From: Morinoia aosen
Taxonomy: Eukaryota > Arthropoda > Malacostraca > Amphipoda > Talitridae
Reading direction: 5' to 3'
Length of the DNA stretch: 64,000 bases
NCBI GenBank assembly: GCA_030386875.1
Contig: CM059563.1
Span: 11,984,001-12,048,000 of the forward strand
A model generated the notes under the pieces. The model was given only the letters and a program-made list of their open reading frames with translations. It was not told where the DNA came from and ran no database searches. The translations under genes were made by a program, and so were the position numbers. Below, one piece after another: positions 5,925-59,384 of the stretch (its first letter is position 1; each line of letters opens with the position of its first letter).

Positions 5925-6195
5925 AGGACATCCTAAAACAAAAGTTCCATACGAGGAGTATTAATTGACAAACCATCAGAGGTGTACAAATAGAAAAGCC
6001 ATATGAGGCATAATAATTGACAAACTATACAAGGTGTACTAATAGACAAACTATCAGAGGTGTACAAATAGAAAGACCATACGAGGCATATTAATGGACA
6101 AAATATACGAGGCGTACTAATAGACAAACCATACGTGGCGTGCTAATAGTCTAACAAATGTTCCATACGAGGAGAACTAATTGACAAACCATCCT
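5925..6195. repeat. Imperfect minisatellite, about 35-40 bp unit
   Basis: Variants of 'ccatacgaggcatattaatt' plus 'gacaaaccatcagaggtgta' repeat about six times. The long minus-strand open frame here (YLYTSD repeats) only reflects the repeat. Confidence 0.6.
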
Positions 6196-12361: not shown

Positions 12362-15300
12362 GTGAGAATTTACACTTATTTTTGTTTATAATATTTCTTT
12401 ATGTTGATGAATGAGTGCTGATTTAAGCTTTTTTAATGCTCTGCGTCAATTATAGCATAATTTTTATGATAGAGACGTTTTAAATCAACAGTTTTTTAGT
12501 CAATTTGAGTCAATTTTGCTCCTAGATATTAGCGAAACTAAATGTTTGTTTTTTTAGGTGTTTTTATAAAGTTTATGCTGTTAACATTATTTATGCATAT
12601 GTTAGATAGATAAGTAATTTTAGGATATTTTTTGACTGAGATTTGTGTATCCAATATTTAACTTTCATGAAAAAATTATTTCATGTCACATATTTATTCG
12701 TGGCAATGTAACATGTATGTGAAATAAGAATGTGAATTTATTTTCCTAGGTTCATAGTGTGGATGGTGTCTTACTTTATCATGAGATGCTATGACATCAA
12801 GATACAAATCTGCAGCATCTCTCTTCTCCACTTTTGCTTCAAGGATCTCCTCATTGAAAAAGGACCGGTTTCTATTGTAAGTTGCTCATGTTTGTTTAAG
12901 AAAAAACACCTATAGTCACTAGCCTTGTTCACTCAAGTATCTTGTATAGTCATAACTTGATATACAATTGCTTTAACATATGACATAAAATTAGATCAAA
13001 TAATTGGGTCTCCACTTAGAGGAAAATCCAACACTCATCGTCAAAGTTTTTTGGTTCAGACCACTATGCGGTAACACAATGAACAGGACAGAAAGGTCCG
13101 TTCACAGTTGCATTTTGCTCTGTAAAGATATCTGGTGATCAGCTCTTACTTCCTAGTGATGATTATTTTCATTTTTTTTTATTATTTTTTGTTATTCTAT
13201 TATCATGGGTTCCAAGAAGGCTAGTGCAAGTTGGTAGTAGTGGTAAAAAAAGGAAAAAGTAATGGTTTCATTTGAAGTAAAGCAAGAAATCATAGAAAAC
13301 CATGAGCGTGATGTGTGTGAGCGATTGGGCTAAGCAATACAACCACAACATGTATACAATCTTTATGATTACACAGAAAAAGGAAGATAGGTTTTTGAGC
13401 TACAGAACAAATCAAATGATTATACATGTATTCCTAGAAGAATAATTGACCCAACATACTAATAATTCAAAGTGCAACATAGGTCCTGGAACAAATTGAA
13501 TTTGTATTTTGAGGTGTTTTGGTATTCTTATGTAAATAACTGATCCAACATTTGAATAATTCAACATGAAATGTAGGTCTTTGAACAAATTAAATTCAGA
13601 TTTTGAAGTACTACTGTATAGGTAGTACAGTTGCCATGATGATTGGCTTAATACAATCTACATCGAACATGATGCTGCGCTGGTTTCATGTAATGCTTTG
13701 ATTTGTTTTAATATCCCAATTTCTAGAGGGTTTTCTTGCATTATTATTAAACGTATTCAATCTGAAAATCAATTGAAAAATTAGCTCAGGCTCTGAAGTA
13801 TATACTAGTTGTTTTGTCTCAATTTGCTCTGTTATTAGTATTTTTCTGTTTTATTAGATCATTGAGAGGACTAGGTTGAAATTTACCTTACTCCTGCCAT
13901 GTCTAGTAATCTGATGCTATTTTTCAAGATATCTAAATGATAATCATTTTATGAGTGGTTTGGATCTTGGCATCAGTTGCTAACTGACTCAATATATGAG
14001 TTTTAGTTGAAAAATTTTACAACCTAATAAACTCTGCATGGCAATTTCCTTTGATTTGGAGGTTCAAATATAAAGCTGCGGTTAAACTCAAATTGTAATT
14101 TGAAAATATTTTTGCTCACTTGGATATAGCTGTAATCCCTTTCTTGTTGTTTAATTATTTTTGTTGTGTTTTCCAGAAAATTGACAGAGTGGGTGCTGCA
14201 AGCAGCCTCTTCAATCAGGATGAAAAGAAAATATTTGCCTTAAAGCTTTATGATGTACGCATTGAGAAAAAGGTATGCTTGTAGTACTTAAGGGTGAATG
14301 CTATGATTGAACCTAGTGGTAAATATAAGGGTAAATACTATGATTGTACTTAGTGGTAAATATTAGTGATGTAGTACATAGCAGTAGCAGTTATTTTTGT
14401 AGAATTAGTAGTAAAGGGTGTTACAAGATATTTTATTTCTTTCTTCTTAGGAGCTTTATTTAAGCAAAGTAGGGAACAGACAAAGAAATTGTGTATCAAA
14501 TCACATTTACTGGTATATAAGCAGAGGTTTAATGCTTTACCATCATGTCGATGTTATGTGAACACATTTGATGCGGTTGTATCTTTGTGTGGACCAATAT
14601 CAAGAACTGTGCTGTAGAGAACATAATTTAAAGATAGCTTAGAATAATCAGTTAATTTTTTATAATTTATTAGGCTTTTGAACAAAAACATTCAGTGGAA
14701 TTTGCCCCATGTAAGCATTTTCTCTTATCCCAAAATTAGAAAACTTGAAATGTTACAATCATGGATCATTTTCTATGTAAAATCTGAAATTGATATGTTT
14801 TATGCATTTTTTTTACCAATGGAATGGTAGATAACTTCATTCTGATTATTTTTATGATTTCTAACTCCACAATGCTATGTTTTGAACTGATAAATTTTTA
14901 TTGTACCTAATTTACTTTCAGCTCAATAGGAATGAATGAAAAAAATCAAAATTAATTTTGTCCAAACCGACTTTTTATTTGTTCATTGTTTTAAATCATT
15001 GAGGTTCGTGATGAGGAACGTCACGACTCGCCTTCAAGAAGCGTCTCCAAGACGAATCTTGATGCTGCTGCAGCCTCACCCCCTGATGAGGACGAGTGGC
15101 ATGAGGCTTTTGATGAAACTTTCCTGCCTGATTTGCCTCCTCCACGGCTCTTTAAAATCTCAGCATCTGTTGTCACTTTAGCTCAGGTCTGTTGATAATC
15201 TTAATTTAATGAAATATTCAACACTGTGAGTGTGCTCAGTCGAGTTCTGTTTTTTCTTTGGCTTCTTTTGATGTTATTGAGTTATTCAGAGTGTAGAGAT

Positions 15301-18300: not shown

Positions 18301-21300
18301 TGAGTTTGGACTTGAAGAATGTGTGTCTGGACGTGCGGGACCGCCTCTTTGTGTTCCTCCAAGTGACGTCAGCGGCGTGCAGCGCAGCGCGTGCTGCCCA
18401 GCCTGACGACTGCAGCCCACCACCGCAGGGCGCCTCCTCCACCGCCGCTGAGGACAATGGTGTCGTGCCCGCCAGTATAGCTGCTGCTCTGCCGGGCGTG
18501 TCGCGCGCTCTGTCCGAGTACTGGCATCTCGTGCCTCAGGTGCTGCTGCTGCTGCTGCTTGCTTCCAGCTCAGGCTTTCATGTAGCCATTTTATAGTGCT
18601 TGAAAGGGGTCTTTTCTGTTAGTTTCAAATATCAGTAATTAGTATACTCTTATTGATCTTGTTAACTGTTTTGGTAAAGTTAATGTTTTTCTGTTTTACT
18701 TTTTCTATTTCTGTAATGTGATGCTTATTTTGGTCTCGGTGGTGAGCATGAATTCCATATAGCGCTACAAATATTTGGCCTACATAGTTTGTTTTTATTT
18801 CAATGGGGAAGAAAATCACAGCTCTGTTGTTAAGTTATTAAAGAGAGCTGCTTTGGTGATTGGCTCATTTCTCCGCAAATTTTTTACCCATAAGAGCCGT
18901 GATGTGGTATGGTGTACTAGTATGATGTAGGTGTTGGGAGATATTCCTACTATTCTTTATTTGTATAATGGGAGAAAATAGATTGATGCACTAATTTCAT
19001 GTAGGAGTGTTTTTGTGGTGGTTATAAACGCTGTTACCAAGCTAACATTTTTCTTGGATTGGAGTCGTTGCTTGCTCATTGTTTACATTTTCCGTGTTAG
19101 TGTTGTTATAACTGTTACAACACATTGAAAAGTCAATTTTGGGTTAAGTTAGCAGAATTTTACATTACTTTCTAGAACTTGACATTATCTTCCAGAACAT
19201 GACGTTTTCTTCCAGAACTTGACATTTTCTTCTAGAACTTGACATTTTCTTCTAGAACTTGACATTTTCTTCCAGAACTTGACATTTTCTTCTAGAACTT
19301 GACATTTCTTCCAGAACTTGACATTTTCTTCTAGAACTTGACATTATCTTCCAGAACTTAACATTTTCTTCTAGAACTTGACATTTTCTTCCAGAACTTG
19401 ACATTTTCTTCCAGAACTTGACGTTTTCTTCCAGAACTTGACATTATCTTACAGAACTTGACATTACCTTTCAGAACTTGACATAATCTTCCAGAACTTG
19501 ACATTATCTTCCAGAACTTGACGTTTTCTTCCAGAACTTGACGTTTTCTTCCAGAACTTGACGTTTTCTTCCAGAACTTGACGTTTTCTTCCAGAACTTG
19601 ACATTTTCTTCTAGAACTTGACATTTTCTTTCAAAACTTGACGTTTTCTTCCAGAACTTGACGTTTTCTTCCAGAACTTGACATTTTCTTCTAGAACTTG
19701 ACATTATCTTCCAGAACTTGACATTACCTTCCAAAACGTGACATAATCTTCCAGAACTTTACATTATATTGGTTGCCCTTGGCAACTAGATAATTTGAAA
19801 TCATAGAAAACCTTTCCTTGTGCAGAACGTGAACCTGAGTATAGAGGATGTGGCCATGAATGTGACGTCTCACCCCACACACAGCAACGTCCTGGCGCAG
19901 CTCGCCTCCTTGCTGTTCACGCTGCGCATCCCTCGTGCTCCTCCCACTTTTCGTGAGGCTGATAATTTGAGAGCAATCGCATTACTTGCTTTTCAAAGCT
20001 TCGGCTTTGTGTATCTGGGTTAGATTGCTAAATTATTTGAACTTTGCTTCTGTAAATTAGAAACTGATTGCGTCGCCCAAGTGTGTAATAATGCTAAATG
20101 TCTTGCGCATGGTATTTTGACTTTGTTGTGCTCTACTCAAGGTAGTGATGGGTTAGTAGCTGAGAAACTCGGGCCAGGTTGAATTCAGGGGAGATATCTG
20201 TGGGTTTCTCTGGGAAACATATATTCGATGTAATCTAATATCGTGTGAGTTTGTAAACTACAAAATACGTTGTTTATTTATAGCTAAAACATTACCAAAT
20301 TTTTCTAAAATGGTACTTGAAAAATAATTTGATACCGTGCTTCACTGTGGGGATTGCTTGTTGGTGGTAACGCGAGTGGTGTGAGAGGTTGAAGGTTATT
20401 CTGATTGTATTTCCTTGTTGAGCTCATTAGCTGCTTCTAGTTGCAAAAACAACAGTTTATTTGTGTAATGGCCTTTGTTGAAATAACCATAACTCAAGTG
20501 TGTATTGGCCCATGTCACTACAAAAACAGCTTTAATGTAATTGATTTGTGCTGAGATAAAAATGTTAATGTATTAGAGCCCATGCTGCGATAACTTGGAC
20601 GTTTATGTGTTTAAGCCCATGTTGTAACTTTGATGTAAATGTGTTTAAACCCATGTTGCGATAACTTTGATGTAAATGTGTTTCAACCCATGTTGCGATA
20701 ACTTTGATGTAAATGTGTTTATATCCATGTTGTGGTAACGTTGATATAAATGTGTTTCAGCCCATGTTGCAATAACAATGACTGACATCGCTGTGTTTGG
20801 TAACCAGGTCGGTAACAGGTTTGGATCCCTGCTTACAGAATCTGTCCCGGCACAGCTGCCCGAGCTGTACAGCAGCTTCTGCGTGGACGACGTCAGGCTC
20901 AATTCCTCCCATCACTCATTCCTTGCGCTGCGGACCCTCAGATCCGACTCTTCGGTGGGTCTATCTTCATTCTTGCGTTTTTCCTTGACCTTTGTTCAGG
21001 TACTGTATTCAGATGGATCATTAGAATTTCCTCCTTGTTTGAACGAGATTGGGCTCAGCTGATGTGAATTTTTTATTTCATGTGAATAGAAAAATGTTCA
21101 ACATTATATTTATTCATTTTTATGGCATTAACAAACTAGTGATAACTGTGGTGCATATAATTATGAGAGACCTTCATAATGGACAAAATCATTTAATGCT
21201 TGGCTAGAAGTACTTTCAGCTGATGATTTCAATTCACAGATCGAACAGATAAAGTACGTAAATGCCGCACACATTACCTGCCCGATTCCACGTGTCCGTC

Positions 21301-24300: not shown

Positions 24301-27300
24301 AACATTTCAAGCGCACACGCAATAGTTTTCTGGGCCTCACACTTGTATTGCAGCTACGCTCAGGAGATCCAGCAGACAGTTGCCTAATGCCTCACATTTG
24401 TGTTGCAGCTACGCTCAGGAGATGCAGCAGACAGTTGCCTAGTGCCTCACATTTGTGTTGCAGCTACGCTCAGGAGATCCAGCAGACAGTTGCCTAGTGC
24501 CTCACATTTGTGTTGCAGCTACGCTCAGGAGATGCAGCTGACAGTTGCCTAGTGCCTCACATTTGTGTTGCAGCTACGCTCAGGAGATCCAGCAGACAGT
24601 TGCCTAGTGCTTCACATTTGTGTTGCAGCTACGCTCAGAAAATCCAGCAGACAGTTGCCTAGTGCTTCACATTTGTGTTGCAGCTACGCTCAGGCGATGC
24701 AGCAGACAGTTGCCTAGTGCCTCACATTTGTGTTGCAGCTACGCTCAGGAGATCCAGCAGACAGTTGCCTAGTGCCTCACATTTGTGTTGCAGCTACGCT
24801 CAGGAGATCCAGCTGACAGTTGCCTAGTGCCTCACATTTGTGTTGCAGCTACGCTCAGGAAATCCAGCAGACAGTTGCCTAGTGCCTCACATTTGTGTTG
24901 CAGCTACGCTCAGGAGATGCAGCAGACAGTTGCCTAGTGCCTCACATTTGTGTTGCAGCTACGCTCAGGAGATCCAGCAGACAGTTGCCTAATGCCTCAC
25001 ACTTGTGTTGCAGCTACGCTCAGGCGATTCAGCAAATTGTTGGCTGGAAAGGCCGCCAGAGCTCCACACCGCGGCCTCGACGTCAGGGCGAGACTTCTTC
25101 TGTCGGAGAGACGCTCAAGCGAGTCAACCTCGATTGCTCTAACATCAACATTTTTGCGCACACCAAATACGACCGTTAGTCTATTTTTTATTGTCTTGTG
25201 GTGTAAGCTAACGTTCCTGAACTTGTTAGCGTATAGTACTGGTGGGCTGTCTTAGAGTAGAGTTCTAGATTGCTTTATAATTCAGTGAAGAATGGGTAAT
25301 GTTCTCCTTTACATATTTTCTGTTGTTCTAATTTCTTTGAGCCTGAATTTCACTGTTCGAGAAAACTGTGCTAAATTAATCTCTTGGGGGTATAAAAGAA
25401 CCCATATTGCTTTCTGTGGTAAATATGTTGGCCTGTTTTGTATATTTTTTTATTGCATGTTAATCTTATGCTAAATGAAGGGCTGGGAAATGCCTGATTT
25501 GTCAGCAAATGCTACGCCTGAATATGCTTTCACGCAGTGATTATCCATTAGAAAAACGTCCCAGGCTCATAACTTCCAGCCGTAAATGCTAGTCGACTTG
25601 GTTGTAAAAACTAAATGATATGGAATTGAGATAAGAAGGAAGAATGAAGAATTTAAAATTAAAATGAGGAATATGATATAATGAAAAAGAATTTATAATA
25701 AAGAACAAAGATAAAGACGTAATTAATAAATTATGGTTTAAAATAAAAAATGAAGACTTGATGATAATTAGTTAATAAAAAATGTAACTAAAGATGCGGT
25801 AATTAATAATAAACTATAGATAAAAAGCACAGTGTCATAAAAATAAATGAATAGGGGTAATGACAATATATATTGAAAAATTAGTTTTAAAGAATTAAAA
25901 TGAACACGTGATGATAAAGGTCAATAGTGAAGATAAATGGAGGTGATAAGGAATCAATTATGAAAAATAAAGACAAAGACTTATTTATAAAGAATTCTTT
26001 TGTGGTGCAGAGTCTGTGATGCTGCGCTGCGACAGCGTGCGATCTGTGCGCCCCTGCACAGCACTGTTCCACGGCACCAAACTTGTGCTGCTGGTGCCTG
26101 AGAGGCTGCCTTATGACTGCCTACCTGCTTCCCAAATCCAGGTCTGTTGCTTCTGGTTGATGCGCTCTTTTCTTCATAGAAAGTTTGACGCATAAAGGAC
26201 TGGTCAGAAGTATAGTGGCTCATCTTCACTGAATGCTTAATCGTTTTGTGGTAATGGGATTTTAGCGTTGAAACATTAAAGGATGGAGTGAGTGGAGTGA
26301 ATACTCAATGAGCTAAGGAGTGTTACCACTAACTTGTACTGACCTGCTAGTGTTCAATTATGAGCAGGTTTATTATTGGGATTTGATATCTTTTTTCACA
26401 TACGTAGCATTGAGCTGGCTTGGTTACAGAACTCTTTTATTGGTTTTCAACCGCATAAATAGCCGAGCCAGTATGGCTTAGTTCTCAATTAATTTCTATT
26501 AACTGCTAGCTTAATACTATTTGAATTTTATTTGATTAGTGTTGAAATTTTAGTCATGTTTTTAGTTTTTTCTGACGTGCTACAAATTTTCTGTCCCTTC
26601 CCTCTTGACTTGAGTGTCTTTGTTAGCGTCCGCCAAAAGCAGTGCTGGGATGGTGTGTTGAAATACCTCAGCTCTCTCTGGATGGTATTTGACTTATTGA
26701 ATTTATTGAGTGATTGCTTTTCATTCATTTCTCTTCAAAATTATGTGTGCAACTATTTTCTTTAAATTTTGGGCAAAATACTAAAAAAATTGCATCACTA
26801 ATACGAAATAGATTCGCAAGTTGGTCGTCCCTCTTTTTAACAGCCCACGTCCTTATGGAATAAATGCTTCCATGATTCGGCCTGTGTTCCGTCTCATAAG
26901 GGGCGCTCGAATACATTGCAGTGAATTTTTGATGTAAATGAAACCTTTGTGGGACAGAGTTGTTGCACTGTGGCGGATATCGGTGTAGTGAGCGTGATGC
27001 TGAGCGGTGCGGACACTCTGCTCGAGGTGCAGGAGCAGTGCATGCTGCACTGGCAGGCCTCCGTGCATCTGACCGTCTTGGCCATCGTGCTGGACCTGCA
27101 CGAGCTCTGCAACTCGCTGCGTACCAGCCAGGCTTGGCCTACACCTCCCAAGCACCAAGGTTTGTCCCCTTGCTTTTGAAAGTTGATGTATGGAACAGAC
27201 CACAAATGCCCAAACTCTGGTATTAAATCGCTATAACGCATTTGTCAGTGTACCACTAGTACACTCCTCTATCTAATGATAAACCTCATGAAAATGATTT

Positions 27301-39300: not shown

Positions 39301-42300
39301 TGACTCTGATTGTGATTGATATTATTTTTTTGGTCCGGTTTGACTAGGCTAGTGTATCATATTGCACTTACTGGTACTGCTGCTGCTTGGTAATTTCTGA
39401 CTGTGATTGTGATTAATATTATTTTTACGGTTTGGTTTGACTATGCAGTGTATCGAACTGTACTTACTGGTGGTGCTACTGCTGCGTGAAGAGTTCTGAG
39501 TGTTATGGAAATTATTCTTACATACCGCTTTGACTAGGCTAGTGTGTCAAACTGTACTTACTGGTGCTGCTGCCTGAAGATTTCTGGCTGCAAAAGTGTC
39601 TGTTGTTATTCCTATGGTCCGGTTCAACTGGCCTGTTGTCTGGACCTGTGTCATCACGGTTCAAGTGCATGCGCGAGTGGCGCTTTGCATGGTCCGGTTC
39701 AACTGGCCTGTTGTCTGGACCTGTGTCATCACGGTTCAAGTGCATGCGCGAGTGGCGCTTTGCGCTTTGACCTAGTTCAATGTTATTATTTCTTTTCAAC
39801 TCCTACTCTAGTCCTTGTACATGATTGGTGTATGACAGCTTGAGACCCTGGTATCGACCTGAGAATGGATCACTCGTTGGACATGTTGTCATATTCAATG
39901 CAATTCAATATTCTGTGCTAACGTTTATTTTCAAACTACATTATGTGGAACAACACAACCAGATTTACAGTGGGAGTTGAGATCACATACGAGTTTAAGT
40001 TTTGATTAAATATTTGTTTCTGGAGAGTCAACAAATAAGTATAAATAATTCTTCAAATTACTGCTTAATAACTTTCATTTCAGTTTTCTTAATGTACTGA
40101 AATTCGTAACAAGTGTTGATGTCACAAACCGGGTCTATGCAATGACTTCTGTAGCATGAAAGTAAGGGCAGACCATTGGAGAGTGCTGATGCGAGGGATT
40201 GTGAGCCGCCTGCAAATGCTGTGTATCAGTTTTAGCTTTGAAAAATAGAGAGTACTAACTTAACATTTAGATGAAATAATTGAATTATTTATTTGTCTGA
40301 TTTAAAGAAGTTATGTATGTTCTTGTTTTCTTAATCAGTCTAATTGCTCACGACAGATGCTCTGTTTCTCATTTACAAGAACGATTCATTTTTGTGACAC
40401 ACATTCTAAATTAAGCTATACATATAATGAAGCTAACTATACACCCAGCTCCCCTTCGATTCAGTGAGCGTACCCAAAAACGCAATTCTCAAGACCTTAA
40501 CCATTAACACCTGGGCACGTTGCAGTTGAGCTCGTGAACTCGCAAGTGCTGCTGAAGGGCTGCGAGACTCAAGGCTACGTGATCTTGAGCGCTGCCAAGA
40601 GTCAGGTGATCCAGCGCATCCATCGGCCTGCCTGGCGCCAGCAGACCCTCAATAGCAAGACCACGTGGTATGGCTCGCTGGGGTGCATGCAGTACTACGC
40701 CACTGTCAGTCCCAGCCACTCCCAGTCCCAGATGGGTGAGTGGGATGACCTCAGTCCCTGATGGGACAGTGAGCTGACCTTGGTCCCAGAAAAGGGAGTG
40801 AACTGATTTCAGTCCCAAAAAAGGGCGGTTGGCTGACAGTCCCAGATGAGGAGTAGTCTGATCTGTCCCAAAAGGGGGGAGTAGGCTGGCCTCAGTCCAG
40901 TCCCAGGTGGGGGAGTGGGCTAACCTCAGTCCTAGATGGGTGAGGGGGCTGACAGTCCCAAAAAAGGGCGGTAGGCTGACAGTCCCAGATGGATGAGGGG
41001 CTGACTCCAGTCCCAGATGGGCTAGTAGGCTGCAAATAGTCACAGAAAGGTGAGGCTGTTGGCTACTTGTTTCCATGTGATGATTTTCAACGCTCAAGAT
41101 GGGAAACGGAACAATTTCTGTTGAATATGAAGGCCAGATGCTTATAGCTACAGATAGACAAATGCAAGGACCAAAGCAAAGGTTTTTTGATGATTTTCAA
41201 AATTGCACGGAAAGAATAAACATTTTTGCCTTCACAAAGTTAATTCAATGTACTATAATAAATTACATACAATATTACATACATACTACATACATACTAC
41301 AATAAATTACAATTTTGTCGGCACATTGGAAAATGTCTCTAATAACTATGTTATTGGTAGGAGTCTGGAAAAATTAATGAAAATCTCTTTGAATTTTGTT
41401 TATTTAAATTATGCATAAAAATTGAGTATGCCATTGACCTGTTAATAACTTCATTTTCTTACCCATTTAGGATACCATAATTGTGCGTCGTTTTCAGTTG
41501 ACCGATTCTTGTTGCTTGCATACAGAACTCTTACCATTTCTCATTGAAAACATGCGAATGTGAAATTCCTTAGTTGCCAACTGACCAAATCCTTCTCACG
41601 TAAGGCTGTTATGTGGTACATATAATATTCGGTAACATCCCACTGAAGTTGAGCATTGACTACAGCGGACAACATCCTGTGGCTCAGCGTGGCTAACATC
41701 GAGGAGCGAGGAGACGCTCAGGAGCCGCTGGATCTGACGGACATCGTGGGCAGCAACCAATGCGCTGGCGGGGTCGTCACCGACACTGTGGGAGGGGCGC
41801 AGCTCGACAAGTCCGGGCAGTGTCACGACATGCAGGTGGGCTTCTAATTGTAATGTCTGACTTTCTTGGGAGGTTTTTGCTCATAGAAAGAGAGATAAAG
41901 TAACCAAATTTGTTGAAAAATCCGTGCTTGAATGTATGTACTCTCAAAATAAAACCAGGATCTTCTGCTGTAGGACCAGTTGGTACCTTGTTCACTTGTT
42001 TATTAGGACGTTCATCGAGTGCTCGTTTGGATGATGTCGCACGTGATACAGTGATACGATGCAAGTGGTGGGTAGTTTTGGGTGCAATTTCCTCCGCAAT
42101 TACGTCGTGAGAAATGAATGTGTTTGAGGAATGTCATATCACGTGTTTCCATCAGGGCTGCTATCGTCGCAGCGTCTTTAGATTTTACAATGTTCCTAAA
42201 GCATCATTAGTTGGTTGCTGGTTGCTTTGCATGTGCTAGGAAAATTGATAATCATTCTCACAGCAAAAAATTTTATTAGATTTGTGCTAGTTTCTTACTT

Positions 42301-45300
42301 TATTGCTATTATCTCACAATGAATGAAGTAATCCTACTATACTTTTGCATATCAAATGTAACTGATTTCCAATAATTTCATTTTCAGCTGCAACGGATAG
42401 TGTCGCGGTGCCGGTGTGAGTTCTACTACGTGGGCTACGGAGAGCTGGGGGTTGAGCCAGAGCTGCTGGGGGAGGTGCAGCCTCCGCCTCCTAACACAGA
42501 CGAACTCTGGGGGGACCACAGAGATCCCACTGACACCTTCACGCTCATGCATCACGACCTTTGCATAAGCACCAACTCGCTCCAGGTTAGGACTCTCCAC
42601 CAGTACATCTTATCTGCAGGTTGGGACTCTCGACCAGTACATCTTATCTGCGGGTAGGACTCTACATCATTTCCTTCTATCTGCAGGTTAGAACTCTCCA
42701 CTCGTACTTTTCTGTAAGTTATAAGGTATAACCCTCTTAAAGTTCCTTCTCTGGGTTAGAGCTTTCCATCACCACCTTTTGTCTACAGGTGATAACTTTC
42801 TACCAATCCCAGCTCTCTGATAATAAGAACACCGCATTAGAGTTCATATCTTAAGTATAATTAAGGGGATTGTTAATGTGTTCTCACTCACCAGTTACCT
42901 CTTTCATTATTATATCATTCGCAATTGAGATACGGAAGTGGATCAGATTTTTGCCTTTCTCGCAGTGTCATGTGCTAGCACACTGTTCTGGCTGACATCC
43001 TCAACAAGCTGCTGTGTCAAATATATGCGCATCTAGTACATTTTACTGTGCTTGCAGTACAACATGGTGGTTGACATCCTCAACAAGCTGCTGTGTCAAA
43101 TATATGCGCATCTAGTACATTTTACTGTGCTTGCAGTACAACATGGTGGTTGACATCCTCAACAAGCTGCTGTGTCAAATATATGCGCATCTAGTACATT
43201 TTACTGTGCTTGCAGTACAACATGGTGGTTGACATCCTCAACAAGCTGCTGTGTCAAATATATGCGCATCTAGTACATTTTACTGTGCTTGCAGTACAAC
43301 ATGGTGGTCGACATCCTCAACAAGCTGCTGTGTCAAATATATTCGCATCTAGTACATTTTACTGTGCTTGCAGTACAACATGGTGGTTGACATCCTCAAC
43401 AAGCTGCTGCTCTTCGTGGACCCAGTGAAGAAAGCAGCGAGTTCAGCGCTCGCTAGGATGCGATTCCAGCTGCAGCTCAGCTCTGGAGAAGACCAGAAGA
43501 AGCCAATTGTCAAGCTGCAAAATCAGCTCAGGTTTGTACAGTTTCATACCTAAATGCTAGTTGTCAATGTCAAACTTTCAAGTTATGGAATGTCTTTAGA
43601 TTTTTCTGATTTTACAAAAATTTTAAGCACTGGTTTTCAAGTTGGTATTTGTTCGAAGATTAGAAACAGAATTTTTCAACTTATTTATAGTCTGTACATA
43701 AAATTGTTCAGTAGAATCGCTCGCCAGAATTTCTAAATGGGTTGAAGATCTCTACTTTATGTCAATTCAGTTCAGAAGTGGGATACCAACGAAGTCATAA
43801 GCGCATCCAGCTATTAGATGCCTTGTCAATATTTTTTGTTGGGCAGAATCAAACTTCATGATATGAACAAGTCTAGCGATTCATTTTACATTATTGACAG
43901 ATTATTTCTGACGTGGATGTAATCTAACCATAACGTGTTGCTTAAAAATTTTATTCGGCAATATAAAAATCTTTACTTAAGTCACTACACCAGTTTACCG
44001 AAGATTTATGACTACGTATGTGAAGTCATCATTCTAAATAGACATCACAGTATGGTAATTTTTTCCTTTTCTTGCCGTCATCATCGGCCCTTTGTGCAGG
44101 AACCAAATGTCACAGCTGCGGGCACTGGAAAAGGACGTGTACCTTGTGCAGCGCGCCCTGGATCGAGAGCCTCATCGGGAAGTGCTCTCAAGGGACATGA
44201 CAGCTCTCACCAAACGGGTCAGTGTTGTGTCTGCTGGCGTGTCTGGGTTACGGTTGTGCAAACGATGGACTTCTGACGTTGGGGTGGCTCCAAACGTTAG
44301 AGGGATTTTCAGTCATGAGCATGATTTAGATATTTTAATAGAATGACAGTTTTGCTGAAAAAACCGCCACCTCCTGTGGAAGCTGCTAGAAGGAGACATA
44401 GGCTTCATAAGAAAAGTTGGAGAACCAAACTTTCTAGGCAAAGTTTAAAGTGCTAAATATTGTATGACTAAATGAAATATCAAGAAGGATTTTTCCATGA
44501 GCCAGTAAAGCCATTCACGAATTCAAATGCTTTCATTGATAGCGTGGTTTATGAGAATTTTTTTCGTTTACAAAAATATCCGGAGCTTAATGCAAAAGCG
44601 GGATATTTTATAATTGCAGAATTGTCTGTAACTACCTTCAGAACCATCGCAACGTGGGTCATCTAAGAATAGGGTGTAGCTGCCATGCTTCTCCTACTGC
44701 ATTGTTTTTTATATTCACTGCTGGTGTTAATTTCTGAAATGTTAAAATGTTCTATATTTTTTAATGTAAGGTATAAAAAGTAATTATTTCTTTTAATTAA
44801 TGAATGTTTCAGTTATTCAGTAAAAATGTAATGTTCATTTTCTTCTAAATCACTGCATTCAAATAGTGTATGTTTTATTTAGCAAAAAGGGAAACCAGTA
44901 ATCAATTACCTATTTCAGCTTTTGTTCTACACCTTAGTTCACCACATTGTTTTCCCCCCGAATCATCCAGTTACTACATGCACTACTTGACGAAAACTAC
45001 ACTACACATGCAAATTCCTACATAAACTCCACACACACTACTTAAAGCTAGGAAATGCAGGTGTTGAGATGGGCGTGTGGAGCTAAGGAGTTGTGGCCCG
45101 TGCAGGTGGTGTCGTGCAAGGAGCGCCTGGCCGCCCTCAGCCAGGAGCTCGCCATCAGGATACACTGCTACAACGAGTCGCTGCTGCGCGCCAACCACAA
45201 GATGTCCATGGCCCAGGGCGACAAGGTGCTGCCTGTCTCCTCTTTTGTGTTCTGTCTTGTGTTCTTTCTTCTGTTTTGTACTCTGTCTCCAGTTTTGTTG

Positions 45301-48300
45301 CTCTGTCTCCAGTTTTGTTGCTGTCTCCAGTTTTGTTGCTCTGTCTCCAGTTTTGTTGCTCTGTCTCCAGTTTTGTTGCTGTCTCCAGTTTTGTTGCTCT
45401 GTCTCCAGTTTTGTTGCTCTGTCTCTAGTTTTGTTGCTGTCTCCAGTTTTGTTGCTCTGTCTCCAGTTTTGTTGCTCTGTCTCCAGTTTTGTTGCTCTGT
45501 CTCCAGTTTTGTTGCTGTCTCCAGTTTTGTTGCTCTGTCTCCAGTTTTGTTGCTCTGTCTCCAGTTTTGTTGCTGTCTCCAGTTTTGTTGCTCTGTCTCC
45601 AGTTTTGTTGCTCTGTCTCCAGTTTTGTTGCTGTCTCCAGTTTTGTTGCTGTCTCCAGTTTTGTTGCTCTGTCTCCAGTTTTGTTGCTCTGTCTCCAGTT
45701 TTGTTGCTGTCTCCAGTTTTGTTGCTCTGTCTCCAGTTTTGTTGCTGTCTCCAGTTTTGTTGCTGTCTCCAGTTTTGTTGCTCTGTCTCCAGTTTTGTTG
45801 CTGTCTCCAGTTTTGTTGCTGTCTCCAGTTTTGTTGCTCTGTCTCCAGTTTTGTTGCTCTGTCTCCAGTTTTGTTGCTGTCTCCAGTTTTGTTGCTGTCT
45901 CCAGTTTTGTTGCTCTGTCTCCAGTTTTGTTGCTCTGTCTCCAGTTTTGTTGCTGTCTCCAGTTTTGTTGCTCTGTCTCCAGTTTTGTTGCTCTGTCTCC
46001 AGTTTTGTTGCTCTGTCTCCAGTTTTGTTGCTGTCTCCAGTTTTGTTGCTGTCTCCAGTTTTGTTGCTCTGTCTCCAGTTTTGTTGCTCTGTCTCCAGTT
46101 TTGTTGCTGTCTCCAGTTTTGTTGCTCTGTCTCCAGTTTTGTTGCTCTGTCTCCAGTTTTGTTGCTCTGTCTCCAGTTTTGTTGCTGTCTCCAGTTTTGT
46201 TGCTGTCTCCAGTTTTGTTGCTCTGTCTCCAGTTTTGTTGCTCTGTCTCCAGTTTTGTTGCTCTGTCTCCAGTTTTGTTGCTGTCTCCAGTTTTGTTGCT
46301 CTGTCTCCAGTTTTGTTGCTCTGTCTCCAGTTTTGTTGCTGTCTCCAGTTTTGTTGCTCTGTCTCCAGTTTTGTTGCTGTCTCCAGTTTTGTTGCTCTGT
46401 CTCCAGTTTTGTTGCTCTGTCTCTAGTTTTGTTGCTGTCTCCAGTTTTGTTGCTCTGTCTCCAGTTTTGTTGCTCTGTCTCCAGTTTTGTTGCTCTGTCT
46501 CCAGTTTTGTTGCTGTCTCCAGTTTTGTTGCTCTGTCTCCAGTTTTGTTGCTGTCTCCAGTTTTGTTGCTCTGTCTCCAGTTTTGTTGCTCTGTCTCTAG
46601 TTTTGTTGCTGTCTCCAGTTTTGTTGCTCTGTCTCCAGTTTTGTTGCTCTGTCTCCAGTTTTGTTGCTCTGTCTCCAGTTTTGTTGCTGTCTCCAGTTTT
46701 GTTGCTCTGTCTCCAGTTTTGTTGCTCTGTCTCCAGTTTTGTTGCTGTCTCCAGTTTTGTTGCTCTGTCTCCAGTTTTGTTGCTCTGTCTCCAGTTTTGT
46801 TGCTCTGTCTCCAGTTTTGTTGCTGTCTCCAGTTTTGTTGCTCTGTCTCCAGTTTTGTTTCTGTCTCCAGTTTTGTTGCTCTGTCTCCAGTTTTGTTGCT
46901 CTGTCTCTAGTTTTGTTGCTGTCTCCAGTTTTGTTGCTCTGTCTCCAGTTTTGTTGCTCTGTCTCCAGTTTTGTTGCTCTGTCTCCAGTTTTGTTGCTGT
47001 CTCCAGTTTTGTTGCTCTGTCTCCAGTTTTGTTGCTCTGTCTCCAGTTTTGTTGCTGTCTCCAGTTTTGTTGCTGTCTCCAGTTTTGTTGCTCTGTCTCC
47101 AGTTTTGTTGCTGTCTCCAGTTTTGTTGCTGTCTCTAGTTTTGTTGCTCTGTCTCTAGTTTTGTTGCTGTCTCCAGTTTTGTTGCTGTCTCCAGTTTTGT
47201 TGCTCTGTCTCCAGTTTTGTTGCTGTCTCCAGTTTTGTTGCTCTGTCTCCAGTTTTGTTGCTGTCTCTAGTTTTGTTGCTGTCTCCAGTTTTGTTGCTGT
47301 CTCCAGTTTTGTTGCTGTCTCCAGTTTTGTTGCTGTCTCCAGTTTTGTTGCTCTGTCTCCAGTTTTGTTGCTCTGTCTCCAGTTTTGTTGCTGTCTCTAG
47401 TTTTGTTGCTGTCTCCAGTTTTGTTGCTCTGTCTCCAGTTTTGTTGCTCTGTCTCCAGTTTTGTTGCTGTCTCTAGTTTTGTTGCTGTCTCCAGTTTTGT
47501 TGCTCTGTCTCCAGTTTTGTTGCTCTGTCTCCAGTTTTGTTGCTGTCTCCAGTTTTGTTGCTCTGTCTCTAGTTTTGTTGCTGTCTCCAGTTGTGTTGCT
47601 GTCTCTAGTTTTGTTGCTGTCTCCAGTTTTGTTGCTCTGTCTCTAGTTTTGTTGCTGTCTCCAGTTTTGTTGCTCTGTCTCCAGTTTTGTTGCTCTGTCT
47701 CCAGTTTTGTTGCTCTGTCTCCAGTTTTGTTGCTGTCTCCAGTTTTGTTGCTCTGTCTCCAGTTTTGTTGCTCTGTCTCCATTTTTGTTGCTGTCTCCAG
47801 TTTTGTTGCTCTGTCTCCAGTTTTGTTGCTCTGTCTCCAGTTTTGTTGCTCTGTCTCCAGTTTTGTTGCTGTCTCCAGTTTTGTTGCTCTGTCTCCAGTT
47901 TTGTTGCTCTGTCTCCAGTTTTGTTGCCGTCTCCAGTTTTGTTGCTGTCTCCAGTTTTGTTGTTGTCTCCAGTTTTGTTGCTCTGTCTCCAGTTTTGTTG
48001 CTGTCTCCAGTTTTGTTGCTCTGTCTCCAGTTTTGTTGCTGTCTCCAGTTTTGTTGCTGTCTCCAGTTTTGTTGCTCTGTCTCCAGTTTTGTTGCTCTGT
48101 CTCCAGTTTTGTTGCTCTGTCTCCAGTTTTGTTGCTCTGTCTCCAGTTTTGTTGCTGTCTCCAGTTTTGTTGCTCTGTCTCCAGTTTTGTTGCTCTGTCT
48201 CCAGTTTTGTTGCTGTCTCCAGTTTTGTTGCTGTCTCCAGTTTTGTTGCTGTCTCCAGTTTTGTTGCTCTGTCTCCAGTTTTGTTGCTCTGTCTCCAGTT

Positions 48301-51300
48301 TTGTTGCTGTCTCCAGTTTTGTTGCTCTGTCTCCAGTTTTGTTGCTCTGTCTCCAGTTTTGTTGCTCTGTCTCCAGTTTTGTTGCTGTCTCCAGTTTTGT
48401 TGCTCTGTCTCCAGTTTTGTTGCTGTCTCCAGTTTTGTTGCTGTCTCCAGTTTTGTTGCTCTGTCTCTAGTTTTGTTGCTCTGTCTCCAGTTTTGTGTTT
48501 TGTCTCCTCTTCTGTGTTCTGTCTCCTCTTCTGTGTTCTGTCTCCTCTTCTGTGTTCTGTCTCCTCTTCTGTGTTCTGTCTCCTCTTCTGTGTTCTGTCT
48601 CCTCTTATGTGTTCTGTCTCCTCTTCTGTGTTCTGTCTCCTCTTCAGTGTTCTGTCTCCTCTTCAGTGTTCTGTCTCCTCTTCTCTGTTCTGTCTCCTCT
48701 TCTGTGTTCTGTCTCCTCTTCTGTGTTCTGTCTCCTCTTCTGTGTTCTGTCTCCTCTTCAGTGTTCTGTCTCCTCTTCTGTGTTCTGTCTCCTCTTATGT
48801 GTTCTGTCTCCTCTTCTGTGTTCTGTCTCCTCTTCAGTGTTCTGTCTCCTCTTCTCTGTTCTGTCTCCTCTTCTGTGTTCTGTCTCCTCTTCTGGGTTCT
48901 GTCTCCTCTTCTGGGTTCTGTCTCCTCTTCTGGGTTCTGTCTCCTCTTCTGTGTTCTGTCTCCTCTTCTGTGTTCTGTCTCCTCTTTGATGTTTTGTCTC
49001 ATGTTTTGAGTGCTCCCTTTCCTGTGACATCAGGCCTTTTTGGCTTCAGTTATGAGAGTAAGTTCCGATGTTTTTTCAAAGAAAAATTAGTTATTTTCAC
49101 CCTAGCACATGCAAATTTCCGGCTGTGTGAAACCTCATAAATTTTTGTTTCCATAAAGGCACAGGAATTTTCGGTCAATTATTTGTATTATTTTGCGAAA
49201 TTTTATCGGTGACTTAAGTTTTTGAATTCACATTTACTTACGAGAAGTTCAGTGAACCTAAGTTATCATCTTGTCTGCAAATTTTATTTTTTATGATTCT
49301 GTTAGGTAAAATAGTTTGTAGAATAGGTGCAGTGATAAGCGTATTCATTTTGCAAACGGTTGTTGATAAAATAACATTCTCAGTCTGTGAAGACGTGTGC
49401 ATTGTGCGCTCAAGAACTCTTGTAAAGATTGTCATGTGCAAAATTACTTAGGTAAAATGTTAATATGATTCAAAAACATTCGGAAAAAAATTTCGTGCTG
49501 CTGGTTCTCGCCTTTTATGAAAAGTTTCATTGCTTAATTTGACATTATTAGCCTAAATGTGCAAAAATATCAATTGCACCTGTTGATAAAATTCAGGAAT
49601 TTATAAAACAATTTGCTCAAGGCTTCTGTTGCTAAGGCACCTATCGTCTCTTTTACAATTATGATGACTGAAATTCATTTTATTCATGGCCAGTGTTGAT
49701 ATTAATTTTTCGATATTGAGTTTTAAGGTTTTAATATTCTCAAAACCCCATTTTGGGCTTCACTTTCTCAATGCATTTTGTTTTGTCAGCATTTAAACTC
49801 GTTCTGCTCCAGATCACAACCATCAGGATGAACGAAGTCTTCTTCAGAAAAGCTCAGTGGCGCCTCACTGAAGATGATGGCCAGCTCGGCATTGCAGAAG
49901 TGGCCCTCTCTAATTTTCTGTGAGTTATTTACCTATTGAAATACAGTATTTGCATGTTCTCTGAAGGAATTTGATTTTCATTTTGATAACAGCATTGTGA
50001 TGAAAAGCAAAGTAGGGAATTCTTATCTTGATATCATCACTGTGATGGAGAGCAGCGAAAGGCATTTTTATCTTGATTTGTATCAGCATTGTGATGGAGC
50101 CAGGCTTCACACGTGGTCTTTGTGGAGTGGAGTTAGATTTCCTCACGCTCTAGCAGACTTTGAGCTACGCTCACAAACCTGGCGTTACCTTCACAAACGG
50201 AAGAGTTAACACACTAATCATTCCTCACACAACAAAATTATAAAATTTGTGCATTGTCCTCTATTTCACATTATTTGACCCTATAAAGTGCCTAACATAT
50301 GAAGTACCAAATTTTATTCAATGGTTCCACGAGCCATGTAGTTTTATGCAGGTGGCTAATCATTTTATTTTTTTTGCTAGTGTTTAGCAGACATTATTTT
50401 CTTCTTTAAAAAGATAACATAAAGCTTGAAACTAGACCTCTATGAAATCTCATTCGTAATTTTTGTTTCTTAACCTGTTGCTCTGTCACAAAATACATTT
50501 TAGTTCAACCTTGATCTGTTCTCCGCACGCTTTTTTGCTAAATGGAAAGTCATTTTCTCTTTTCTAAACAAGGTACACCAAAAAGAATAACTCGGATGAC
50601 AGTGGCGAACACTTGATGGAGCTCGGTTACGTGAACATGAAAAACTTGCTCCCTAACCAGGCGTACAGCGACGTACTCGCCCCCACCACCCTCACCAGCA
50701 CTTGCCCCCTCGACCGGCAGGTGGTGTGGTGTGCTTGTGCGCTCGTATGGCTGTGATTGTGTTGAAGCATATTAAATTACCTATGATTTTTCAATAATAT
50801 GATGTAAATGGAATATTAACTACGAGTATATAAGTATTTGAGGTTACATTGCAATTCGTGCAGAGAATTCTTGTATTTTACGTGTTAAAATAAATCGCTA
50901 TTTGGTTGCAAATCGCTCCTAGAGTTCTAAACTTTACATAACCTGACTTGTCATTATACTGGAAACTTATGGTGTGCGCTCATGCTCATCGTTATTTACG
51001 GTATTATTTTCATGCCATCTTCCCCCAGAAAACTTTGAGAATATTTTGCCGAGAGAAGCCTCCATGCGGTGGCATCTCTGTCATCGACCACTTCGAGATT
51101 AACGTTGTGCCTCTGGATATCTGTGAGTTATCTGCCGGCCTCGCATTAACGTCAATTCTTAATTTTCTGTTTGACCTCGTCAGTTTAGTGAGCTGCACCA
51201 AAACTTTGCTTAGAGCAATGAGCTGCCAAAAAAATAGTTTGGTTATGTTAGTTACAGAACTGGAAAAGTCATTTTTAAACCCAGATATCTTATGTGAGGA

Positions 51301-54300
51301 AGTACACTGCAACATTTTGTTTCAGTAGGAGATTTTTGTGGGTGGTATTCCGCTCCTGTATGCTGAAACCGTTTTTTCCTTGCTCTTATTATTTATTGTT
51401 TTCACGTCAAGTGCCGATATGATTTCTTTCTTGGTCTTCTGCATAATGTCATAGCTCCCCCTGAATTGTATAGTTCTGACTTGTGCAAACTGTGAGATCA
51501 TTTCATGTACTGTTCTACTGCCTGTTCTTCGAAGCAATGTTTTTTCCAATATCTTGTTCAATTGACCTAATACTGTTGTGAACGGTCTCTTCAGCGCTGA
51601 CGTATCAGTTCTACAAGACCATCCTGAAGTTCTGCTTCCCTGACAACGCCGTGGTGGTCGAGGAGTCGGACAGTCGGAGGCGGCCGCCTGTTCGCCGCAC
51701 CGCCAGACCCAACAAAGACTCGCACTTCTACGTGCAGCTGCAAAAAGACGACGTGGAAATTATGAAGGTAATCAATGCCAGCTGAAAACGCATTTCATTT
51801 TAGTTTATTTCAAGCCGAGCTTATGCGAGCAAATTGTCAATTGGTCAAACCAATTGTTACCAATTGACAATTGCCCAATTTTGGTAACAATTGTTTTGGT
51901 AACCAATTGTTACCAAAACCATGTTACCAATTGTTCAATAATTAACTAAAATGACAAAAAAAGTGAAGGAAATAATTTTTCTTCATTTTATAGCCGTCGG
52001 GCTCTCACATAGTTTAAATCAATGCCCTTCAATTCCTATATTTTCACTAGTTATAGAAATTGATATTCTAAAAAGGTGTTCTGGAATATGACGCTACTAC
52101 ACTACGAACCTATCTTCTTTGCACAGCAACGAGCGGAACAGAACAAAATGTTCGTGTACATCAAAATCCCCGAGCTTAAAATTCGTCTGAGCTACAAAGG
52201 CATGAAGGAAAAGAACCTGACGGACGTGACCAACTTCCGGCTGGTGGTGCCGTCACTGGAGTACCACAACGTCACCTGGACCTGGCTCGACTTCCTCAAC
52301 GGCCTCAAGGAGCACTGCAAGAGCGCCCTCGTCCCTCAGGTGCGTCGGGCGTGTGCTCTGCTGCTTTGTAGTGCAAATATTGACGCTTTCTATAAAGCTG
52401 CTGTCGAAATCAGCTTGTTTATGAACGTAGGTTAGAATCTACGCTCTTAAGAGTCGCGTCTGTCCGCCTGTCAACTCTTCAAAGGGATAAGAGAAGGACC
52501 GTGGCACAGATACTGTTCCATGTTTCAATTACGTTGCGCCCGTGCTCGTGCTCCAAGATACGTGATGTGAGGCTTATTTCCCCTGTTTATTTTTCAAAAG
52601 TTTAGTGGTATGGATTGTATCTAACTCGAAGGTAACGCGGTCACTTTTGACTCATCTGACTGGTAGGGTTTGCTAGTAATAAAACTTTTGAACAATTAAT
52701 AAAATTTCGTTTTACTCTTGAAACACCAGTCGCCTGTTAACCAGCCTCTGATGCTTAGGAGTTTAAGATTGTGTGATTTAATTTTTAGGTCTTCTTGGAT
52801 TGAAACTTTTACTTCTTACTTGTTTGTGGGCGTCATTGTCAAATGTTTACGGAAATATAATATTCACCATTCTATGCCACGTATCTTCCACGCTATTGGT
52901 ATTCAATTATACACTTGACAACCCAATGCTTTTCAACTTTATTCGCGTGTTATATTGGTAAGTTTCTGTACAAAATTTTGCTTTGTCGTTAGTAGAATTT
53001 ATCTTCGATCACTTGGGCAAAAGCGCTACTCTGTTTTTTTTTTTTACATTGACTCAGGACATATTCTAAAGTGAATTCTTAATTTTTGGTATCTGTGATG
53101 CAATGTGAACATCCTCTGGCTTTTTACTTAGATGAGACATCTATCACAGAAATTAAACTCATTGATAGAGCTTATGAAGTATTTATGGTTATTAGCTTTG
53201 CCTTCATTAATTCTTCGTTTAGATTGAAAAGTTCTAAGTGTTCAATTTAATCAACTGATTCTTAATTTCATTGATTTGCGTCGCGTAAATGCAATGTCCT
53301 TTTTTGTAGTTTCATTCATCGTTACCAACGCATGAATCCAGGGTTATAAAGGGAAATTTTTGTTCTCTTTGATGGCAGGTGATCAAAATTAAACTGAACG
53401 TGTTGAACAAGGGCTCTGATGCCACGGCTCAGCTCGACGAAGAGGCCAAAGCCCGACTGCTGCTCGGTGACCGGCGCTTGGTGAGTGTTTCATTTGGAAA
53501 TCTACGTTCTTTTCATAAGTTTGGACTTTTGTGAATGCTAATTATACACATATTTCTGTTGGCTTGGTGGGTGTTACATTACGAAATCTACATACTTCTC
53601 ATAACTTCGGTTTTTTATGAATGCTAATTATACAGATATTTTTGTTGGCTTGGTGGCGATTATGAGAGAGACTTGCTTTCCCAAGAAATATTGGATGTCT
53701 GTAGCGATCAAAATAATAAGTGCCCTGACACAACTCTTTGCAAATATTATCGCTGTGGAATTATTGTACTGAAGCGATTACAAGCCTGTAGAAAATCATC
53801 TAATAAATTTACAAAAAAGACAAGAATCCTGATTAGCATTGTAATAGGGATACACCAAAGAGATGAACGCTCTTAGAAATGACCGAAAATTTAACTGTGG
53901 TTCACGAGACCTTCACTCCGTAAGTCCGTCAAAGAAGAAGTTAATTCTGAGTTTTAATGCGTGATCGTTTTCTTAGTATTTACTTGCTATGAAACTAACT
54001 TTCTATTCGGACATCCATTTTTTTGGCCAATTTTATTCGTTTGTTGTGGCTCACAAAATTGTTTAAAAGGGACATGCATGCTTTAATGCGGGCTCCTACT
54101 ATCTGTACACAAGCTGAGGCTGCACGAGGTGCGCTATTCCTATTTGAATGGTAATTTTGGGATAGATATTTTTAGGCTCTTATAGAATAGAGCTGCTAGT
54201 ACTTCTTAAGTCGAAAGCATAGCTTCTTTCAGCCAATATGTTTGCTTCTTGATAAAAAGTGTTCCGTATGTTAATATTTGTTTCTTACTCTATAATTGAA

Positions 54301-55132: not shown

Positions 55133-56798
55133 TAGTGCTTTATCTTCTTGATGTCAACCTCTTGTGTTTATCATCTTGTAACTTTGAACTCTAGTTGTAG
55201 TTGGTGAATGATTTCAGATAGGCCGTTTGGTTAGATTTATCAGTGAACCATTCCGTTTTTAGTTACGTCTTGAGCTGTTGTCTATTATTTGTTAAATTCC
55301 GTGAAAAAATGAATTCTCGAAAATCTGGTGGTGGATATAATAGGACAATATTATTTCACTTTGCTAAAGTTCATTTTGTTACTCGAAACCTAGAATACTA
55401 AAAGAACAATGGTCTCTGTGCTTACCATTGTTGAATGTGATTGGATTTGAACTCTTAAGTCTATGCATGACGTGTCAATTATTATAAACTGACGCTTTTA
55501 TAGTAGAGTCAATGCAGAAGTTTGAGTTTGTCACAAGTTTTCTTGCCACTCGTGAGAGCAGTCGTTCGATGAGCATCGCTTTATCCCTGCAGTGAAAGTG
55601 TAATAATAACAGCAGTCACAAGAGCTGTTCTCGTATTCTGTCTAGTAGTTGCTGGTACTTTCATCGGTTTGAGATCTTTCTTCCCCAGGATTGGATCGCT
55701 TTGAGCTGAGAACGGACGGCTAGGAACACTCTAATTACACTCTGGGTGTGCGTGCGTGTGGGGTTATTCCGTATCAGAAATTACCCTCAAAAACGGTTCT
55801 GAACACTGCCAAGTTGTACGCTTCGGTCGGTGCCGTTATCGACAGTAATTTCTGACTGGGTTTTGCCTAAGTTTGGGTACAGAAAAAATAGTTTGGAACC
55901 GTTTCATCAGCAGCATCAAAGCTCATTACCAGTAGCCTCCTCACTCCAGAAGTCGTCCTCGGTTTTTGTTCGATAATTCTCATTGTACACCCGTTCAGTC
56001 TGGTCAAGTAACACGTGCGTTTTTTATTAAGGTGCATTTCTTATGAAAATGTATGGTGTGCTTCTGTTTTTCTCTTTGCATTACCTTGGACGTTGTTAGA
56101 AATCAGTCCTTGCAATCTTCTCTTGCTGTTCAATTTTGGTGGTAAGCAGCGCTCTGTACAAATTCCCCTCTCGTGTCGAACACCAGAAGACCTGAGAAAT
56201 TTTTTAGCAAATAAGAGTTATATATGTGAGAGCAATAAGACAATGTTACAGTATATTTAGTTTCAACACAATTAAGTGTTATCCAATAAAAAGGAAATTT
56301 TGCGTGTTCCCTTTACCACGTTTACTGGTACCAAATTATTGAATTATTGAGCTTGGTGAAGGGAAAGAAGTCGTAGACAAGGATTGATACAGGAATACCT
56401 ACTCACGAGCAGGTATCCAGCTGACCCGGCACCTTCTCGTGGTGGTACCGTTGAAATACCCAACTGCTCTTTCCTCTATCTTTTGAGTTTTCTTTCGAGG
56501 GATTAAGTTTTTAGTTTTTTTTTCCAATTCCCCGTTGTTGGGTAGAACAAAGTCGGGCGGCGGCCCGAGCTCTTCGGAGCTTGGGTCTCTTTTGCGTAGT
56601 TATTTTCTCTTTAATTTGCCCTATATTCCAGGGCCCTTAAATAGCCTATAAGAATAGACTTAAGTTACGCAGACCAATAGTCCATTTTGGATTACTACTT
56701 TGGATCCCAAAGTAAAACTTTAAGCACTTCTGGCAACAATCAGCGAATACCTCAAACCCCGACTTCGAGGCGGGGAAACCCCCTCTGAAGCCGGGAGT
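55133..56798 (+). promoter_or_regulatory. LINE 5' untranslated region (putative)
   Basis: 1.67 kb without a recognised protein. LINEs of this type carry internal promoters at the 5' end; none can be pinpointed here. Its first 719 bp are repeated at the window end with one difference. Confidence 0.5.
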
Positions 56799-59345: not shown

Positions 59346-59384
59346 TTGAACGATTGAATAACAAAATCAAATCAAACACACCCC

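Follow-up and report, generated by a model that had tools for sequence, protein, structure and literature searches.

The question raised by the gene Hobbit/BLTP2/FMP27 (hereafter BLTP2) of the amphipod Morinoia aosen is why tandem repeats in its introns should lie so often against the splice junctions, and why the repeated units should so often contain the junction itself. The gene occupies positions 14177–54491 (+ strand, like the arrays of the gene given below) of a 64-kb stretch of DNA, referred to here as the window (assembly GCA_030386875.1, contig CM059563.1, positions 11,984,001–12,048,000), which is part of a 69-Mb contig in an assembly of 1.99 Gb and 29 contigs. Our preferred answer, which we regard as probable, is that the arrays are minisatellites of the type described in lancelets as mirages, i.e., tandem duplications of exon-edge DNA that are tolerated as the exon-proximal splice site stays in use.

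The concentration at junctions is evident from the positions of the arrays. With Tandem Repeats Finder (TRF), 12 of the 13 arrays that score at least 80 in BLTP2 introns lie no more than 62 bp from a splice junction, and the sole array of this class far from any junction is a perfect repeat in the middle of intron 27 (75 bp x 2.0, 100% matches; 39614–39763), 371 bp from the donor. At a score of at least 50, with calls merged, the gene has 17 arrays, 12 of which are within 65 bp of a junction where 4.4 are expected; an array wholly inside exon 15 (28668–28700) was set aside before this junction-distance count. Counted by intron, and with a duplicate at the exon 17 donor that is absent from the TRF list taken in, an array or duplicate is found within 62 bp of a junction in 11 of the 38 introns (2, 7, 8, 11, 17, 20, 28, 30, 33, 34, and 39), in agreement with a first-pass annotation of this DNA that had reported at least ten.

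At six junctions the repeated unit clearly includes the boundary, and each of these matches best in its own flank. The exon 12 acceptor (25014) is crossed by a 55-bp unit in 12.7 copies (24334–25034), made up of the final 20 intron bases and about 35 exon-like bases, and the exon 31 acceptor (43374) by a 79-bp unit in 5.3 copies with 98% matches (42989–43409), which includes 36 exon bases. The donors of exons 17, 20, 28, and 30 are duplicated together with the exon ends. At exon 17, the donor edge (TTCAACTTGG/gtg, with the slash at the splice site) is present in two copies (30719–30785), and a weak third copy occurs near 30820. A 34-bp unit is repeated at the exon 20 donor (33106) over positions 33093–33198 (TRF array 33129–33198), so that CACCCTCAG/GT recurs two more times within the intron. 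The exon 28 donor (40735) lies in a degenerate array of ~29-bp units (40699–41063), and the exon 30 donor (42585) in a 34-bp array (42583–42836) that repeats CAG/GTTAGGACTCTCC and has decayed copies extending past the TRF end at 42701.

Two further sites had been listed alongside these six in the first-pass annotation, and both are weaker. The array before the exon 21 acceptor (33603; 38 bp x 2.5, 33496–33617, with the TRF call at 33496–33590 ending 12 bp before the acceptor) has a decayed resemblance to the exon 21 start, matching at 21 of 32 bases, with the AG lost in both upstream copies. The TRF array across the exon 39 donor (53480; 86 bp x 2.1, 53476–53656) contains the last five exon bases, and the donor likeness amounts to 18 of 28 bases. 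Neither site passes the own-flank best-match test. Introns 20 and 30 have arrays at both ends, as had been noted, though the one at the exon 21 acceptor is weak. Over all junctions, the junction word matches its own intron flank best, relative to the flanks of the other junctions compared, at 12 of 183, against 2.4 expected; the 12 include the exon 9 start at 20761, which was placed after the array was seen, and position 7588 of locus L026, which belongs to a doubtful exon.

The remaining arrays lie beside junctions or, in one case, possibly across one. A 37-bp unit in 2.0 copies (TRF, 14289–14363) begins 16 bp past the exon 2 donor, and a 45-bp unit in 2.5 copies (TRF, 49982–50099) lies 62 bp past the exon 34 donor; a junction copy was looked for in both and not found. 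Before exon 8, a 20-bp unit in 29.9 copies (TRF, 19170–19765) stops 60 bp short of the acceptor, and its unit resembles a 3′ splice site (cttccagAAC), with no copy alignable to the true exon 8 junction. The array preceding exon 9 (TRF, 37 bp x 5.4, 20579–20776) covers the acceptor if the exon starts at 20761, and is 62 bp away if it starts at 20839. Most of intron 33 is occupied by 3.7 kb of pyrimidine-rich 20-bp units (TRF, about 186 copies, 45258–49000) that begin 32 bp past the exon 33 donor. The most frequent unit carries a ctctgtctccag-like 3′ splice motif, and intron 33 may therefore contain very many potential acceptors. Upstream of the gene, at 5947–6149, the window has a further array of a 26-bp unit in 7.8 copies, partly called as a 78-bp unit.

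The exon coordinates come from our own model of 39 exons and 38 introns (median intron 726 bp), in which one or more N-terminal exons lack a confident call. It was built with a small, purpose-written, splice-aware gene finder trained on the obvious exons. PF10344 matches two of three long frames tested from the gene, and the predicted protein up to exon 21 (1583 residues) scores 508.7 bits against this profile, with the best stretch at profile positions 733–1443. Beyond exon 21, the model is supported by the gene finder and by one exon among the frames tested with PF10344, and it also leans on human BLTP2. The exon numbers agree with those of the first-pass annotation when exon 2 is 14177–14272. 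A first exon at 13672 was removed as unsupported, and a gene-finder exon at 40875–40970 was rejected, as it sits within the exon 28 array. For exon 9, coding and acceptor scores slightly favour 20839, and the Pfam run gave a score for neither variant. The conservative start, 20839, was used in the placement tests for BLTP2 and for all loci and in the block and edge tests, and 20761 in the placement tests for the other loci, the reduced set, and short introns.

The plainest account of these observations would be an ordinary repeat-rich genome in which junction arrays were noticed because the exons were being followed. Tandem arrays are indeed common outside the counted introns: 20 sampled 10-kb stretches (200 kb) together contain 51 arrays, or 2.55 per 10 kb, very unevenly spread, against 45 arrays in 88 kb (5.1 per 10 kb) in counted introns, although these stretches were hand-picked and non-random, two adjoin the window, and some contain genes. 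One stretch with no clear gene predicted (L020) has eight arrays of score at least 80 in 10 kb and is richer than BLTP2, so that the contrast is seen on average and not for every single stretch. Repeat abundance does not, however, enter the placement test, which conditions on array and intron length: each array was slid over all positions of its own intron, with exon overlap of up to one unit allowed. Of the 14 BLTP2 arrays that score ≥60, 5 are within 10 bp of a junction, where chance placement gives 1.9 (P = 0.03). The count reaches 9 within 50 bp, against 3.5 by chance (P = 0.0017), and 12 within 100 bp, against 5.4 (P = 2.9e-4).

The same bias is found in loci that the first-pass annotation did not cover. 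Ten loci of the same genome from two protein families (seven myosin, three SNF2) were compared, with an exon taken as valid when Pfam recognized it or BLASTP matched it to another of the loci, as was so for 60 of the 92 predicted. Their 70 introns contain 31 arrays. Seven of these are within 10 bp of a junction against 3.4 by chance (P = 0.04), 14 are within 50 bp against 6.0 (P = 4.5e-4), and 20 are within 100 bp against 9.2 (P = 1.3e-5). Two of these loci, L022 and L023, were chosen partly for long open frames round the exons, which favours repeats but not their position; with them and BLTP2 removed, 13 of 21 arrays are still within 100 bp (6.4 expected, P = 6.7e-4). For all loci together the count is 32 of 45 (14.7 expected, P = 1.4e-8), and for wholly intronic arrays 22 of 35 (9.0 expected, P = 7e-7). 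Units that span the boundary also recur, in L022 and in the myosin locus L025. In the latter, a donor and its exon end are repeated ten more times with GT kept in all ten, at a step of 42 bp in most copies; a second donor has an 82-bp array, and an acceptor array is also present. The L025 donor was set at 3088 and a false exon (3299–3538) removed, both after the array was seen. With these results, a reader's-eye origin of the pattern is disfavoured in the present sample, and we consider it very improbable.

The myosin and SNF2 genes of this genome have features of their own. In L024 and at C1:35644596-35648320, several versions of one muscle myosin exon stand in series, resembling clusters of mutually exclusive exons. 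On contig C27, between 58.9 and 72.9 Mb, eight matches lie in long SNF2-type frames (449–1275 aa, one with internal stops), unlike many other SNF2 genes of the genome, which are split into exons. Four near-identical SNF2-like frames with ~35-kb spacing are found on contig C26 at 20.56–20.67 Mb.

The form of the bias is given by the array edges, which number 2.05 per kb in the terminal 100 bp of introns and 0.79 per kb in the interior, i.e., they are 2.6 times denser near junctions (P = 2.8e-4). Arrays are thus not equally frequent in mid-intron DNA when edges are counted, whereas occupancy of 100-bp blocks is about equal, with 28 of 132 terminal and 97 of 420 interior blocks, because a few long arrays fill the interiors. 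This equality is one of several points that weigh against the preferred reading. Base coverage rises only mildly, in BLTP2 to 14–15% at 50–100 bp from 7–11% at 150–400 bp, and in the other loci to 13–16% at 50–150 bp from 9–11% at 150–600 bp, and it climbs again deep inside long introns. The excess of exon-overlapping arrays is also mild (10 of 45 in all loci, 5.0 expected, P = 0.017). In introns of up to 1000 bp outside BLTP2, the counts within 10 bp (3 of 17 against 2.6 expected) and 50 bp (7 of 17 against 4.4) are not clearly raised, and the excess appears at 100 bp (12 of 17, 6.8 expected, P = 0.0055). Genes also differ, with zero arrays in the counted introns of four loci (L027, L028, L030, and L031). 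The placement tests treat arrays as independent, and the 10- and 50-bp cut-offs were not preset, that of 100 bp being taken from the first-pass annotation. Finally, use of the exon-proximal site, on which tolerance of the arrays would depend, is presumed. It would be a mistake to say simply that intron DNA is more repetitive close to junctions; the combination of edges, occupancy, and coverage suits arrays that start near junctions and run inwards. Base composition also changes at the junctions, where guanine-plus-cytosine content is 0.55 in exon ends and drops to 0.36 at 60–100 bp into introns, a change that may or may not matter for the array bias.

A common origin of the arrays from one repeat family is not indicated. 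No cross-match between the units of the window's arrays was found at E<1e-3, which rejects a shared unit and agrees with the proposal that the arrays arose as independent events. The 79-bp array, one of the window's 14 arrays and the one searched in this way, has no second place in the 1.99-Gb assembly (very common words skipped); because it occupies a single place in the genome, a transposon source is rejected and its origin appears local. Insertion of copies by misassembly has a precedent, in that one draft lancelet mirage was aberrantly assembled (PMC3087553). Here, however, copies differ by substitutions in several arrays, and the units in several loci are unrelated, which makes an assembly artefact scarcely credible.

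A more serious alternative invokes age and transposon structure. If minisatellites were evenly spread in old single-copy DNA and younger transposons had filled the middle of introns, arrays would seem crowded at the ends. Interspersed-repeat cover, estimated by cross-matching of fetched sequence as a lower bound on a tiny sample, is indeed 1–3% within 75 bp of junctions and 4–14% in 11 of 12 bins beyond 150 bp. Four BLTP2 stretches were also searched against the assembly. Two of them yielded at least one mid-intron element each, with the best 40 of 444 and the best 40 of 9578 candidates scored, so that more may hide. The interspersed repeats lie at about 27414–28248 and 36120–36699, the latter with thousands of first-look candidates. 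The other two stretches (28544–33100 and 49920–54440) have no match elsewhere in the assembly (very common words skipped), their sole extra match being a 50-bp inverted self-match within 49920–54440. Furthermore, the excess remains in introns of up to 1000 bp (15 of 27 arrays within 50 bp against 7.2 expected, although the loci other than BLTP2 do not show it at this distance), and the alternative leaves the repeated exon edges unexplained. From the four stretches searched, all in BLTP2, mid-intron transposons seem to account for little of the bias in this gene, and we judge the alternative to be unlikely. Downstream of BLTP2, at 56724–63115 (+ strand), the window contains a pair of frames resembling a non-LTR (long terminal repeat) retrotransposon. 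One frame (873 aa) is zinc-knuckle-like and has no Pfam hit; the other (1044 aa) has reverse transcriptase and RNase H domains.

The fate of the inner copies bears on whether they serve a purpose. Spare splice sites or intronic signals could be selected because they aid splicing or give regulated isoforms or decoys, and some arrays are intact in a manner that fits this. The AG is kept in 12 of 12 upstream copies at exon 12, where the acceptor score is slightly above that of the true site, and in all four full upstream copies at exon 31, where the junction word matches at 32 of 32 bases. Splicing at the first inner donor of exon 20 would lengthen the protein by 18 residues, and no stop occurs in the part read; the 42-bp step in L025 is a multiple of three. 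Uniform arrays may nevertheless appear intact simply through youth, and the more diverged arrays have lost sites: GT is kept in two of eight inner copies at exon 28, and AG in two of seven at exon 9 and none of two at exon 21. Moreover, reading from inner sites leads to a stop at exons 12 (two sites), 30 (three), 31 (two), and 39 (one), and from the second inner donor at exon 20; at exon 17, the short part read is stop-free. Selection that keeps redundant sites, which the first-pass annotation had offered as one possible cause, is therefore not borne out, and we regard it as distinctly improbable. Since the upstream copies at exon 12 have an intact AG and a slightly better score, the sequence near the AG would not be what decides among these acceptors, and it appears to give the spliceosome no cue; the downstream exon and its donor presumably specify the acceptor.

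The duplication of exon-edge DNA, tolerated while the exon-proximal site is used, would account for these features as follows. A stretch of ~20–90 bp at or beside a junction would undergo tandem duplication through slippage or unequal exchange, after which the array would expand into the intron. A duplicate that includes the splice site and the exon edge would be retained because it is nearly silent, as the spliceosome would keep to the copy adjoining the exon body, while a duplication wholly within the exon would change the protein and be lost. Inner copies could then stay uniform, as in the 55- and 79-bp arrays, or decay, as in the 37-, 38-, and 29-bp arrays. We infer that arrays begin at the edge and grow inwards, and that duplications are either born or kept more often in the first ~100 bp of the intron; purifying selection on the exonic copy would also prolong the visibility of exon-edge duplicates. 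A common local process, as the first-pass annotation had suggested, is supported, because the arrays are mutually unrelated, biased towards junctions, and show the same bias in other loci. The observation made in that annotation is confirmed, and its interpretation is supported in part.

Tentatively, we entertain a wider possibility: throughout the genome of this lineage, exon–intron junctions may be hotspots at which tandem duplications are born, perhaps through a link with transcription, splicing, or the placing of nucleosomes. If so, introns would expand outward from the splice sites, and spare sites would be made continually, as raw material for the evolution of shifted junctions, isoforms, and new introns. 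One route proposed for the origin and movement of introns is the tandem duplication of splice sites, and natural series of fresh and decayed duplications are, to our knowledge, rare. A genome that produces them often would let the intermediate steps be watched, and would test the choice of the spliceosome among a dozen near-identical acceptors.

Among known systems, intron gain by tandem duplication of AGGT-type sites has been described for a potato RdRp (RNA-dependent RNA polymerase) gene (PMC4974935), and the Rogers model of intron gain by tandem duplication is named in PMC3087553. AGGT-type gain and the BLTP2 arrays both involve tandem duplication of DNA with a splice site, but the former makes a new intron, whereas the BLTP2 arrays sit in existing introns, with no new intron shown. 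In unit size and uneven density, the BLTP2 arrays are like intronic minisatellites generally. According to PMC3152781, repeats with units >8 bp are far scarcer in the introns of Daphnia pulex than elsewhere in its genome; in contrast, the introns counted here are richer in arrays than the sampled stretches.

The closest likeness is to the mirages of lancelets (Branchiostoma). As described in PMC3087553 and PMC3902484, these are tandem duplicates of intron–exon boundaries in Adh3, globin, troponin C, and PGBD5 genes, minisatellite-like, located at either intron end, with units of 10 to ~160 bp and AG or GT in many, but not all, copies. The same sources report undisturbed splicing, which reverse transcription PCR (RT-PCR) suggests for globin, and copy-number changes for Adh3 and one globin gene; mirages have so far been reported from cephalochordates. 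The portion of a lancelet huntingtin paper that we consulted (PMC2206037) mentions tandem repeats and has nothing on junctions, and no junction arrays outside lancelets were found in the open-licence literature, among the titles and abstract openings of the matches listed. As in mirages, the tandem units of BLTP2 span the boundary (acceptors of exons 12 and 31; donors of exons 17, 20, 28, and 30), arrays occur at donors and acceptors, with introns 20 and 30 affected at both ends (weakly at the exon 21 acceptor), and splice dinucleotides persist in many copies but not all (12 of 12, 4 of 4, 2 of 8, and 0 of 2 at exons 12, 31, 28, and 21). The lancelet globin mirage has RT-PCR behind it, and the BLTP2 arrays are known at the level of genomic DNA.

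Unlike in lancelets, the host is an arthropod, arrays or duplicates at or near junctions affect 11 of the 38 introns of a single gene, and the junction bias is measured over several loci. The BLTP2 arrays thereby suggest that mirages are not peculiar to one phylum. A muscle myosin of the same genome gives its best scores to 5w1a, 8u95, 7kog, and 3jbh, which are structures from fruit fly, fruit fly, water bug, and tarantula, respectively, in keeping with an arthropod, among comparisons that included no lancelet sequence. The structure itself is already known from lancelets; what the BLTP2 locus adds is a greater density in a single gene and a measured bias in position.

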